Below are positions 46,037-50,330 of a stretch of 64,000 nt of DNA, in pieces. The notes beneath the pieces are model-generated. The model saw nothing but the letters and a program-made list of their open reading frames with translations, was not told where the DNA came from and did not search any database. Position numbers and translations under genes: made by a program. Each line of letters begins with the position of its first letter. Within the stretch, counting starts at the first letter, position 1. Location: NCBI RefSeq assembly GCF_003664995.1, contig NZ_JFHL01000002.1, positions 434,001 through 498,000 of the forward strand, given 5' to 3'. This DNA comes from Mesotoga sp. BH458_6_3_2_1 (GTDB taxonomy: Bacteria > Thermotogota > Thermotogae > Petrotogales > Kosmotogaceae).

Positions 46037-46065
46037 TTGACCATCTTACTCACGGGTTATATAAT
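46037..46065 (+). promoter_or_regulatory. Strong sigma-A-type promoter of the yugP-rlmN-rsgA operon
   Basis: TTGACC (46037-46042) and a perfect TATAAT (46060-46065) are 17 bases apart. Transcription should start at about 46072, only about 15 bases before the start codon, so the leader is little more than the ribosome site AGGAGG (46073-46078). Confidence 0.75.
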
Positions 46066-46086
46066 CGTAAGTAGGAGGTGGTTAAG

Positions 46087-46764
46087 TTGTTTTGGGATCC
46101 AACGTTCATTATACTTATTCCAGCAATTATCCTGGCAGCTTGCGCCCAGTTTCTTGTTAGCTCGCGGTTTTCTCAGTATTCGAAAGTTAGGTCTACCTTC
46201 GGTTTTAACGGCACTCAGTTAGCCAGACAGCTTCTTGACAACGCGGGGCTTTACGACATTAAGATAGAAAGAATAAGAGGCAATCTCACTGATCACTATG
46301 ATCCTAAGAAGAGGGTTGTACGATTATCGGATGCAACTCACAACAGCACATCAATAGCGGCCTTAGGAGTAGTCGCACATGAAATTGGCCACGCCATTCA
46401 AGACAAAGAAAAGTACGCTCCGCTGGTTGTTCGCAATGCAGTAGTACCTGTTGCACAGATAGGCTCTTCCCTCTCCTGGATTATCTTCATTATTGGGCTT
46501 CTTATGGTATCACCGATTCTAATCAGAATTGGAATCGTTGTCTTCTCGGCCTTTGTGTTTTTTACGCTGGTAACACTACCGGTAGAGTTCAATGCGAGTT
46601 CCAGAGCTAAGAAGCTCCTCGCTTCAATGGGAATGCCTTCGAAAGAGCTGAAAGGAGTAAGCTCCGTTCTAGGAGCAGCCGCGATGACGTATGTTGCATC
46701 TGCCGCCACTTCGATTCTTCAGTTGCTCAGAATGTTGGTGTTGTCGGGTGCTGGAAGAGATTGA
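46087..46764 (+). CDS. YugP-type membrane zinc metallopeptidase
   Basis: A 225-residue membrane protease of the YugP (Zn_peptidase_2) family. One N-terminal helix (DPTFIILIPAIILAACAQFL) is followed by the zinc site VVAHEIGHAIQD, a helix pair, and the SRAKKLLASMGM segment typical of the family. It probably degrades or trims membrane proteins. TTG 46087 lies eight bases after AGGAGG; GTG 46078 overlaps that site. It heads an operon with rRNA and translation genes. Confidence 0.87.
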   Translation: MFWDPTFIILIPAIILAACAQFLVSSRFSQYSKVRSTFGFNGTQLARQLLDNAGLYDIKIERIRGNLTDHYDPKKRVVRLSDATHNSTSIAALGVVAHEIGHAIQDKEKYAPLVVRNAVVPVAQIGSSLSWIIFIIGLLMVSPILIRIGIVVFSAFVFFTLVTLPVEFNASSRAKKLLASMGMPSKELKGVSSVLGAAAMTYVASAATSILQLLRMLVLSGAGRD

Positions 46765-47768
46765 TGCAGGATGCTCGTTCGATAGCGCTGCAAACTTTGT
46801 CTTTCTTTGATGCAAACGGGTACATTTCTTTCAAGAAGGTGGAGATGGCTCTCTCCACGCTTTCTTCAAAAGACCGCTCTTTCTGTATAAACTTGATCTA
46901 CGGAATTCTAAGAAAGAGAATCAGAATCGACTATGAGCTTGCCCGCTTTTTGAGGAAGCCCAGCAAAGTTCCAGTAGCGGTGAGAAATGTCTTGAGGATG
47001 GGGGTATTCCAGATCCAGTTTCTGGACAGTGTGCCTGAATACGCCTCAATAGACTCTTCGGTAAGTCTAGTAGGCGTAAAGGAGTTCAAAGGACTTGTGA
47101 ATGCAGTTCTCAGAAAAATCGCTGATTCTGGCCCGTCGAAAGATCAACCGTTAAATGTCACCTATTCTCATCCGGAGTGGCTTGTGAATTATTGGAGAGA
47201 TGTAGAGTGGATCGAAAGTCTGGAAGAGCTTCTTGAGTATAACCAAACACCTCCAGTACAGACAGTTATTGCCTCTGGCCGACAAGATGAACTTGTCGAA
47301 AAGGGTTTTATCTTCGACATGAGCCAGTACTCGGATCTTCTCAATATCTTTCAAAGAGGCGATCCCTCATACAAGCCTGAAAGCGTTGATGAGGTTGAGT
47401 ATATCCTTTCGGGACTGGGCGTCCCAGTAGCAAAGCATAGCGGCACCCTTACGGGAAGAATAAATTCCATGCCTTGGCTATTACATTCTCTGAGTCTCAG
47501 TGCCTTTACAGAGGCTTTTCAGAAGGCGAAGGAGTTACTGAGTAGCTTCGCGAAAGAACACGATGATTTCATTTACTATAGCCAATCAATGACCGAAGAG
47601 GAGAACAATAGAGCTCTAAATTCTCTTAGTGAATTTGAACCGGTTGAAATGGAAGAGTTCTTTAAGAAACGGAGAATTGCCGCTGTATTCGATGGAAGTG
47701 GTTACTGGCTACAACCATCGAAAGCGCCACTTGTTGGTTATGTGGCCAGGATTAGGAGAGCAAGATGA
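46764..47768 (+). CDS. RsmB-like protein lacking the methyltransferase active site
   Basis: A 334-residue protein. Residues 1-130 are the NusB-like RNA-binding domain of RsmB (DARSIALQTLSFF, RNVLRMGVFQIQFLD, FKGLVNAVLRKI), followed by the RsmB-type SHPEWLVNYW linker. The remainder is much shorter than the usual RsmB (about 430 residues). The SAM-binding DxCAAPGGKT loop is missing, the catalytic PC motif is absent, and the YSTCS motif reads YYSQSMTEEEN. The C-terminal VGYVARIRR matches RsmB. It is probably a non-catalytic rRNA-binding protein. ATG 46764 overlaps the previous stop by one base. Confidence 0.82.
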   Translation: MQDARSIALQTLSFFDANGYISFKKVEMALSTLSSKDRSFCINLIYGILRKRIRIDYELARFLRKPSKVPVAVRNVLRMGVFQIQFLDSVPEYASIDSSVSLVGVKEFKGLVNAVLRKIADSGPSKDQPLNVTYSHPEWLVNYWRDVEWIESLEELLEYNQTPPVQTVIASGRQDELVEKGFIFDMSQYSDLLNIFQRGDPSYKPESVDEVEYILSGLGVPVAKHSGTLTGRINSMPWLLHSLSLSAFTEAFQKAKELLSSFAKEHDDFIYYSQSMTEEENNRALNSLSEFEPVEMEEFFKKRRIAAVFDGSGYWLQPSKAPLVGYVARIRRAR

Positions 47769-48784
47769 AAGATATTCTTTCCCTTGGTCTTGACGAGATG
47801 AGAGGTCTGCTGCTTTCTAAAGAAGAAGCTGCTTTCAGAGCTGACCAGATCTTTAACTGGGTTTACAAGAAAAGAACTCTGGACTTTTCAGAAATGACGA
47901 ATCTTCCCAAGGCTCTTCGAGGAGAACTGCCAGGATTACTGTACTTCTCGGCAATGAGGGCAGTTGAAAAGCAGTTTTCGAAAGACGGTACCGAAAAGTA
48001 CTTGTGGAAACTCAAAGATGGGAATCAGATTGAGTCTGTTGTCTTGAGGCATCCGGGACATGTTACTTTCTGTATCTCTTCTCAAGTAGGTTGTGCTTTG
48101 AACTGCTCCTTCTGCGCAACGGGAGCGGGAGGTTTTTCTAGGAACCTCTCGACCGGTGAAATTGTCTCTCAAGTGATCCACATGGAAAGAGCTATTCATG
48201 GACCCGTAGACAACATTGTCTTCATGGGAATGGGTGAGCCCTTTCTCAATGAGAACAGTGTATATAAGGCAATCAATATCCTTCACGATCCCAGAGGTAG
48301 AAACCTTGGCTTCCGGCATTTCACAATATCCACTGCAGGAATACCGGAAGGGATAAAGAGGCTTGCGGATTCAGAGATAGATATCAGGCTTTCAGTTTCA
48401 CTCCACAGTGCCAAAGATGAGTTAAGAAGCTCATTGATGCCAGTAAATAGGATACATTCATTAGATTCGCTGAGAGAAGCACTTGTGTATTATCAACAGA
48501 AGACTGGAAACAGAATTACCTTTGAATATGCCTTGATAAGTGGAGTGAACGACACAGCCGGAGATGTTGAACAACTTATCAAATACCTTCGAGGAATCAA
48601 GTCTTTTATAAATATAATACCTGTGAACCCTGTCAATCCGAACTTCGAAAGACCTACAGATCAGAAAGTTGTAGATTTCGAGGAAAGATTGAAGGCTGTC
48701 GGATTTGAGAGCGCAGTGAGACATGAGAAGGGCACGGACATTGATGCCGCTTGTGGCCAGTTAAGGCAGAGAAGAAGGGGGTAA
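47765..48784 (+). CDS. rlmN: 23S rRNA adenine-2503 C2-methyltransferase RlmN
   Basis: A 339-residue radical-SAM enzyme. It holds the iron-sulfur motif C110-x3-C114-x2-C117 (VGCALNCSFCATG), the SAM-binding GMGEPF, and the C-terminal catalytic Cys in DAACGQL. It methylates A2503 of 23S rRNA and A37 of some tRNAs. Its ATG overlaps the stop of the RsmB-like gene (ATGA), and rsgA follows three bases later, forming a ribosome-related operon. Confidence 0.95.
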   Translation: MKDILSLGLDEMRGLLLSKEEAAFRADQIFNWVYKKRTLDFSEMTNLPKALRGELPGLLYFSAMRAVEKQFSKDGTEKYLWKLKDGNQIESVVLRHPGHVTFCISSQVGCALNCSFCATGAGGFSRNLSTGEIVSQVIHMERAIHGPVDNIVFMGMGEPFLNENSVYKAINILHDPRGRNLGFRHFTISTAGIPEGIKRLADSEIDIRLSVSLHSAKDELRSSLMPVNRIHSLDSLREALVYYQQKTGNRITFEYALISGVNDTAGDVEQLIKYLRGIKSFINIIPVNPVNPNFERPTDQKVVDFEERLKAVGFESAVRHEKGTDIDAACGQLRQRRRG

Positions 48785-48787
48785 GGC

Positions 48788-49690
48788 TTGGAAAGACGAA
48801 AAGGAGTAGTAGTTAGATTTGGAAGCAGGAATATGGAAGTGGTGGACAACGAGACAGGTGGGAGGCTTTTGTGCACGATGCCAGGTCGGTTTAGGATGCA
48901 AGGGATTAGACCAATTGTCGGTGACCGAGTTGAATACTCTCTAAGCGGTAACGGCCAGGGTCGGATAGAAAGTATTCTCACAAGAGAAACTGAGCTTCTG
49001 AGACCGAGGATTTCCAATATAGAGCAGATACTCCTGGTGCTTTCCCTCAGAGAACCTGCCGTTCAAAATGTGATTACGGACCGATTTCTTGTTTTGGCTG
49101 AATATGCGAAGCTGCCAGTTGTTGTAGTCATTAACAAGATCGATCTGCTTGCTGACGACGAAATAAAGGAGTTCAGTGAAATCTACGGTGAGTATTACAA
49201 CATTCATCAGGTCTCTTCGAAGAAGGAGATTAACATAAATCAATTGCGCGATATTCTGAAAGGCAAGATAAGCGTGATGGCTGGAATGTCTGGTGTCGGA
49301 AAGAGCAGTCTGTTGAATACGCTTAATCCAGGTCTGAAGTTGAGAGTGTCGGAAATATCTCGAGGTCTTGAGAGAGGGCGACATACTACTTCCTACGTGG
49401 AATTGCTTCAGTTCGATTTCGGAGGGTTAATTGCCGATACACCTGGTTTTGCAAATCTCGAATTGCCTGAAATAGAGCCAGACTGCCTAAAGAGGTATTT
49501 TCCGGAGATTGATCAGGAAAGCGGAATGTGTGCTTTTTCCGACTGCGTCCACATCGATGAACCTGGGTGCTACGTTAAGGAGCTGATAAAAGCAGGGAAC
49601 ATCCACGAAAGTCGGTATGAAAGTTACTTGAGTATGTATAATGAATTGAAGGAAAGAGAAAGGGAGAAGGGAGGAAAGAAGTATGGCTAA
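48788..49690 (+). CDS. rsgA: Ribosome small subunit-dependent GTPase RsgA
   Basis: A 300-residue circularly permuted GTPase. The order is an OB-fold N-terminus (residues 1-65), G4 VVINKIDLL, then G1 GMSGVGKSSLLN, G3 DTPGF, and the C-terminal zinc knuckle CAFSDCVHIDEPGC. It acts in late assembly of the 30S subunit. The TTG start lies three bases after the rlmN stop, with GGGGTAAGG as a weak ribosome site. The rpe gene starts inside its last codons (8-base overlap). Confidence 0.95.
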   Translation: MERRKGVVVRFGSRNMEVVDNETGGRLLCTMPGRFRMQGIRPIVGDRVEYSLSGNGQGRIESILTRETELLRPRISNIEQILLVLSLREPAVQNVITDRFLVLAEYAKLPVVVVINKIDLLADDEIKEFSEIYGEYYNIHQVSSKKEININQLRDILKGKISVMAGMSGVGKSSLLNTLNPGLKLRVSEISRGLERGRHTTSYVELLQFDFGGLIADTPGFANLELPEIEPDCLKRYFPEIDQESGMCAFSDCVHIDEPGCYVKELIKAGNIHESRYESYLSMYNELKEREREKGGKKYG

Positions 49691-50330
49691 GATATCTCCC
49701 TCTATTCTTGCTGCTGACTTGACCAATCTAGCCTGCGAAGTAAGTAAAGTACGAAAAGCAGATTTTCTGCATATAGATGTAATGGATGGGATGTTCGTCC
49801 CTAATATAACTTTCGGAGTACCGATTATGGAGGCGCTGGGTAGGTTGAGTCATCCACCACTGGACGTTCACTTAATGATAGAGGAACCTTCGAGATATGT
49901 GAGAGAATATGCAGAACTTGGCGCAAAGAATCTTCATGTTCACGTGGAGGGCAACTATCATCTTCACAGGCTGCTGGGACAGATAAAGGAGTATGGAGCC
50001 AATGCTTTCATAGTCTTGAACCCGTCAACACCCGTTTCCTGGCTTGAAGAAGTTCTTCCTTTTGCTGACGGTGTGCTGGTTATGACCGTAAACCCTGGCT
50101 ACACAGGTCAACGATTTATTCCGGAAGCTGCAAGAAAAATTGAATCGCTCGATCGCATTCGCTGTGAGAAAGGGTTTGACTTCGAAATTGCAGTTGATGG
50201 TGGTGTAAGCCTCGACAATGCGAAAGAGCTTGTTAGTAAAGGCGCTGATATCCTCATCATGGGAGCAGCGGTATTCAGATCAGATTCTCCATCAATAGTT
50301 GTTGATAGGATCAAGGAGTTAAGAAGGTGA
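49683..50330 (+). CDS. rpe: Ribulose-phosphate 3-epimerase
   Basis: A 215-residue TIM barrel with the epimerase motifs PSILAADLTNL, HIDVMDGMFVPNITFG, HLMIEEP, VMTVNPGYTGQRFI and AVDGGVS. It interconverts ribulose-5-phosphate and xylulose-5-phosphate in the pentose phosphate pathway. It overlaps rsgA by eight bases and rdgB by four, and a GGGAGG-type ribosome site precedes the ATG. The order rsgA-rpe is common in Gram-positive-type genomes. Confidence 0.95.
   Translation: MAKISPSILAADLTNLACEVSKVRKADFLHIDVMDGMFVPNITFGVPIMEALGRLSHPPLDVHLMIEEPSRYVREYAELGAKNLHVHVEGNYHLHRLLGQIKEYGANAFIVLNPSTPVSWLEEVLPFADGVLVMTVNPGYTGQRFIPEAARKIESLDRIRCEKGFDFEIAVDGGVSLDNAKELVSKGADILIMGAAVFRSDSPSIVVDRIKELRR

Follow-up and report, generated by a model that had tools for sequence, protein, structure and literature searches.

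RsmB (Fmu, Sun) is the methyltransferase responsible for m5C967 in 16S rRNA (TIGR00563, PRK14903; structures 1sqf and 1sqg). It has long been asked whether cells retain rRNA methylases such as this one because of the methyl group they add or because of the hold that the protein has on the rRNA. Single-molecule experiments performed in vitro and published in 2026 indicated that E. coli RsmB, together with RsmD, reduces misfolding of H30/H31 independently of SAM. The effect was measured for the two enzymes together and on a minor subclass of molecules; it is mimicked by replacement of the h31 loop, the authors' proposal being that the two enzymes keep this loop sequestered (PMC13004024). Moreover, E. 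coli ΔrsmB accumulates 17S rRNA precursor, and RsmB acts early, before S19 (PMC7056703). Assembly roles independent of modification have also been described for METTL15 (PMC11197891) and for RlmB and RlmKL (PMC11194073), and the mitochondrial NSUN4-MTERF4 pair provides another relative of the RsmB/F-type m5C methyltransferases with a separate assembly role (PMC3916286).

The Kosmotogaceae protein analysed here, a short RsmB ortholog that we call core-less RsmB, is proposed to share with METTL15, RlmB, RlmKL and RsmB/RsmD in vitro an RNA chaperoning or assembly checkpoint function exerted by binding alone. However, the active sites are kept in those proteins, whereas the Kosmotogaceae form has lost the SAM half and both catalytic cysteines; likewise, NSUN4 differs from it in being catalytically active and acting with a partner. 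No earlier report of such a form was found in the literature searched, which excluded most subscription journals.

The gene and its neighbours

The gene was found in a 64,000-nt stretch of the genome of Mesotoga sp. BH458_6_3_2_1 (hereafter the window), where it lies in a run of genes on the forward strand. The features are as follows:

46078 to 46764, forward strand: YugP-like neutral zinc metallopeptidase, upstream of core-less RsmB (PF04298, E = 7.8e-87)
46764 to 47768, forward strand: core-less RsmB ortholog, an ORF of 334 aa plus stop
46773 to 47126, forward strand: NusB-like RNA-binding domain (PF01029; residues 4-121 of the TTG-started ORF)
47127 to 47390, forward strand: SHPxWL linker and a ferredoxin-like region that is reduced (about residues 122-209, up to the deletion point)
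47391 to 47765, forward strand: remaining part of the Rossmann domain, its second half (about residues 210-334: β4, αD, β5, αE, β6, β7)
47765 to 48784, forward strand: rlmN (TIGR00048, E = 8.5e-113)
48788 to 49690, forward strand: rsgA (TIGR00157, E = 1.4e-72; PF03193, E = 1e-51)
49683 to 50330, forward strand: rpe, ribulose-phosphate 3-epimerase (PF00834, E = 8e-69)

The ORF starts with the ATG at 46764-46766 and stops with the TGA at 47766-47768; an alternative in-frame start, TTG at 46761, would give a protein of 335 residues. The ATG overlaps the TGA stop codon of the zinc-peptidase gene (TGATG), and the rlmN start at 47765, with AGGAGAG upstream of it, overlaps the stop of core-less RsmB (ATGA), as the preliminary description of this DNA had reported for the overlap with rlmN and for the rsgA gene that follows. 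These overlaps between start and stop codons point to translational coupling of core-less RsmB and RlmN. Directly before the zinc-peptidase gene there is a promoter-like sequence, TTGACC-17-TATAAT (46037-46065; 11 of 12 matches, a class of match no more frequent here than in shuffled sequence), and this site is likely to be the start of a yugP-rsmB-rlmN-rsgA-rpe transcript.

Extent of the deletion

The first domain is matched by Pfam with an E-value of 6.1e-22 (78.9 bits, cut-off 23.1), and the PF01029 NusB-like N-terminal domain is found in all 16 short forms compared. The methyltransferase domain PF01189, on the other hand, has no Pfam match in core-less RsmB or in any of the 16 short forms, and PF22458, the ferredoxin-like domain of RsmF/B, is matched below threshold by the protein of the window and by seven of the 16 overall (best E 0.013). 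The NCBIfam RsmB models match residues 1-170 only, with scores well under cut-off (153 versus 503 bits and 89 versus 269 bits).

The short form has 334 aa compared to 411-446 aa for the full RsmB of relatives, and about 95 residues are missing, close to the 100 estimated in the preliminary description. Aligned with full-length RsmB of other Thermotogota, core-less RsmB lacks the SAM motif (e.g. DACAAPGGKATH), has other residues in place of the motif-IV PC and shows YYSQS where full RsmB has YSTCT. In the region of the motif-VI cysteine it has FIYYSQSMTEEEN opposite LIYSTCTVTYEEN of full RsmB, while the EEN after motif VI and the C-terminal DGxGYWLxP block are retained. Motif I, PC and TC are present in the 33 full-length sequences examined (one motif I reads DACSAPGGK) and absent from 16 out of 16 short forms, which bears out the claimed loss of the SAM loop, the PC nucleophile and the TCS motif. 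In one genus (g3, loci L012-L014) the YYSQ region is degraded further, e.g. to FFLLLDSYSLEET in L012, with EE(N/T) still there. That is, the strand context of motif VI itself drifts and the EE(N/T) motif stays.

Profile-profile alignment with full-length RsmB from Thermotogaceae is collinear over 331 columns (E = 3.6e-46), the main gap opening after residue 209 of core-less RsmB. The AlphaFold model of the short form is confident (pLDDT 92.2, pTM 0.87), and a control model of a full-length relative (pLDDT 84.6) shows the canonical order β1-αA-β2-αB-β3-αC-β4-αD-β5-αE-β6-β7. The linker and ferredoxin-like region of the short form has, in the AlphaFold2 model, the strands 167-169, 184-187 and 194-198 and the helix 175-180; past the last of these strands come a short helix (211-217), a β4-like strand (223-226), αD (246-266), β5 (269-274), αE (280-286), β6 (292-295) and β7 (326-333). 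Alignments and predicted structures together show that the deleted block corresponds to β1-αA-β2-αB-β3, i.e. the SAM-binding half of the Rossmann fold, and that the β4-β7 half stays. Strands were assigned by reading the two DSSP strings and the alignments, without residue-by-residue superposition of coordinates. The preliminary description, which had the NusB-like domain and the C-terminal strand of RsmB as the parts kept, was thus right on the former but gave too little for the latter, since αD-β5-αE-β6-β7 is also retained. It had also left room for a SAM site to emerge from structure prediction; none is seen in the confident AlphaFold model.

The top Foldseek match of the model is E. coli Fmu/RsmB (1sqf, E = 7.4e-13; 1sqg, E = 3e-12), with a TM-score of 0.77 by query length and an rmsd of 5.6. 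NusB structures, including NusB-boxA complexes, are also matched, to the first domain. Orthology to RsmB is supported by the conserved yugP-rsmB-rlmN position together with the collinear profile alignment, and the initial reading of the protein as an RsmB homolog without catalytic core is confirmed by the NusB domain, the absence of PF01189 and this alignment. With RsmB it shares the orthologous position, the NusB domain, the SHPxWL linker, the second half of the Rossmann domain and the overall architecture (Foldseek E 7e-13), whereas it differs in having no SAM half, no motif I and neither the PC nor the TC cysteine, and in being shorter. With NusB (TIGR01951, PF01029) it has in common the all-helical RNA-binding fold of residues 4-121, but it falls under the equivalog cut-off and has about 210 additional residues of RsmB origin. 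The protein is RsmB by descent and not an m5C methyltransferase by its defining features, and annotation as the latter or as NusB is inappropriate. As judged from sequence and model, there is no known mechanism by which it could act as a SAM-dependent methylase.

Distribution, origin and selection

A profile of the short form was used to survey 103 Thermotogota genomes and matched 63 of them. The short form occurs in all 17 available Kosmotogaceae genomes, which represent five genera (Mesotoga, Kosmotoga and kin), with 29-88% identity. The matched frames of these 17 genomes contain no stops, and complete copies have 334-338 aa; in two of the genomes (G009 and G013) the gene is split by contig ends. 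In the other 46 matching genomes the RsmB frames are full length or cut at contig ends. There was no match to the short-form profile in 40 genomes, one of which (G042) has a contig-cut catalytic half.

That the genome encodes a full-length RsmB or RsmF at another locus was rejected with two profiles. PF01189 is absent from the whole source genome, in a search that was positive in 14 of 14 control genomes, and is not found above cut-off in any Kosmotogaceae genome. With the full-length RsmB profile, the only second matches in Kosmotogaceae genomes are canonical NusB and weak matches to other methylases. The genome search proposed in the preliminary description has thus turned up no complete RsmB, and no other RsmB/RsmF in the family.

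In a maximum-likelihood tree of the NusB part the short forms make up one clade, with a support of 100 for the split between short and full forms, which makes a single deletion event, predating the divergence of the Kosmotogaceae genera, the most likely history. The conservation of the short form in relatives, also raised at the outset, is therefore that of a form fixed throughout the family and of single origin.

Between close Mesotoga pairs, dN/dS (NG86) is 0.11-0.19 for core-less RsmB versus 0.08-0.19 for rlmN in the same pairs; these values, although obtained with the simple Biopython estimator, are far from neutrality. By segment, the values are 0.04-0.17 for the NusB part (residues 5-125), 0.08-0.30 for the middle and 0.16-0.24 for the Rossmann remnant, i.e. 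the NusB domain changes more slowly than the second half of the protein. The NusB part (residues 1-124) also shows the highest conservation of the protein (mean 0.73) and has a net charge of +4 to +12 in complete copies, the remainder being acidic. Residues invariant in the 15 full rows of the alignment lie in both halves: R6, L50, R51, D57, R79, G81, N114, R118, W140, D210, P238-W239-L240 and E281. From these sequence comparisons, purifying selection is shown to act on the NusB-like domain as well as on the Rossmann half that remains. The preliminary description had held that a full RsmB at this locus in relatives would make the short gene a recent pseudogene. Other families do have full RsmB there, but the short form is present throughout its own family, and a recent pseudogene is ruled out by this presence and by the dN/dS values.

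Possible function of core-less RsmB

Core-less RsmB is most likely an ancient, functional, non-catalytic RsmB, and by analogy with the E. coli protein we consider it probable that it works as a methylation-free 30S assembly factor binding helix 31 of nascent 16S rRNA. The conservation of the RNA-binding half and the loss of the methyl-donor half suggest that it works only as a ribosome-assembly helper. As RsmB has been conserved without its SAM half, the simplest account would be that the Kosmotogaceae kept only the SAM-independent assembly function. As sequence and model show, RsmB has lost β1-αA-β2-αB-β3 and both catalytic cysteines, most likely in the common ancestor of the Kosmotogaceae, after which m5C967 would no longer have been made. 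The protein would most likely still bind nascent 16S rRNA at helices 30/31, together with RsmD, which the family has retained, and, as proposed for E. coli RsmB/RsmD, sequester the h31 loop, so that the 3′ domain misfolds less early in 30S assembly. Of the idea that a dead enzyme was kept for an rRNA-binding or assembly role, the retention under selection holds and the role is plausible in the light of the E. coli RsmB literature, whereas the argument from the operon is weak (see below).

The target base is in place. In the source genome and the other matched Kosmotogaceae, h31 of the 16S rRNA reads GATGCTAAGCG or GAAGCTAAGCG, with a C at the equivalent of E. coli 967. That catalysis was lost because the target base had disappeared is rejected for the Kosmotogaceae, as C967 is kept in every genome of the family whose 16S matched the pattern. 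Here C967 is still present and probably unmethylated; the ancestral m5C967 state in Thermotogota is taken by analogy from E. coli. Among the matched genomes, a G at 967 occurs only in G018 and G024 (family f2), which belong to a genus that lost RsmB (g7); all matched 16S copies of g7 (loci L131 and L130) have the G (GATGGTAACCG).

Alternatively, core-less RsmB might be a non-catalytic partner subunit that delivers rRNA to, or activates, RsmD, which acts at G966 next to 967, or the co-translated RlmN, in analogy with the pseudo-methyltransferase subunits of two-subunit enzymes. The overlap with rlmN would fit, as would the retention of RsmD in Kosmotogaceae (best match weak in G016, 83% complete), the half Rossmann domain left as a possible protein interface, and the hydrophobic conserved PWL and the EEN/EET positions, which have no catalytic reason to persist. 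However, in families f5 and f10, as in two genera of f2, yugP and rlmN have a full RsmB between them, and in RsmB-less genomes yugP adjoins rlmN (G041, G018, G024) or rlmN is in another setting. The yugP-rsmB-rlmN order is thus ancestral, other families having either full RsmB there or a clean loss, and since catalytic RsmB occupies the same position, the coupling to rlmN is inherited and gives no evidence for a new role; operon context as a sign of such a role was discounted for this reason. Furthermore, other families have RlmN and RsmD without any RsmB. We therefore regard a partner role as unlikely. Slightly less likely still would be its stricter version, in which core-less RsmB is an obligate, non-catalytic component of an rRNA-modifying complex of two proteins, with the half-Rossmann domain docking on RsmD or RlmN and the NusB domain presenting the RNA. 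If true, a former methylase would have become a targeting or activating subunit of a neighbouring methylase.

Two observations concern rlmN and its surroundings in other Thermotogota. Outside Kosmotogaceae, many genomes encode a small membrane protein with PASTA-like repeats between rlmN and rsgA (loci L083, L085, L082, L078, L072, L070, L073 and L071), the position of the PrkC kinase in Firmicutes. In addition, the draft genome G039 has two near-equal rlmN matches (contigs C45 and C18; loci L076 and L090), possibly due to a strain mixture or a duplication.

An improbable alternative is a NusB-like transcription factor, with a role in antitermination or rRNA transcription through boxA/S10 binding rather than in assembly. 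The NusB domain being the best conserved part, and the structural match to NusB-boxA complexes, would agree with such a role, which however leaves the Rossmann half without a function. In addition, a separate canonical NusB is encoded by 16 of the 17 Kosmotogaceae genomes, the exception being G006 (80% complete, 260 contigs), where core-less RsmB alone matches. Replacement of a missing NusB was rejected on the same count. The score against the NusB equivalog TIGR01951 (42.6 bits, cut-off 88.35) is also weaker than the matches to the RsmB models. As a side note, the canonical NusB domain of four family f5 genomes (G057, G055, G052 and G059) is part of open frames 710-725 aa long, which points to fusion with a neighbouring protein.

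A functionless relic in slow decay is strongly disfavoured and seems very improbable. RsmB is dispensable in Thermotogota, having been lost outright in several families, but the low dN/dS in every close pair, the intact frames of near-constant length, the invariant residues in both halves and the confident fold all speak against decay. That the protein is still an enzyme, of unrelated chemistry or with a SAM site unrecognisable by sequence, is hardly credible: polar S188, S191, D210, E211 and E281 do not vary among the 15 full rows, but neither cysteine is left, and the strands and loops making up the SAM site in class I methyltransferases have no counterpart in the model.

Regarding the favoured role of core-less RsmB in 30S assembly, many other Thermotogota have lost RsmB without sign of a substitute, so that a chaperone role cannot be essential in general. 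The advantage of core-less RsmB may accordingly be conditional, since other families do without RsmB. The protein is also a trap for annotation, as Pfam names only NusB and the NCBIfam RsmB models match only the first half. With the methyl-donor half lost, the RNA-binding part conserved and the target cytosine present, the Kosmotogaceae appear to have run a separation-of-function experiment on RsmB, and core-less RsmB would be a natural, stable, methylation-free RsmB that allows a direct test of the chaperone model.
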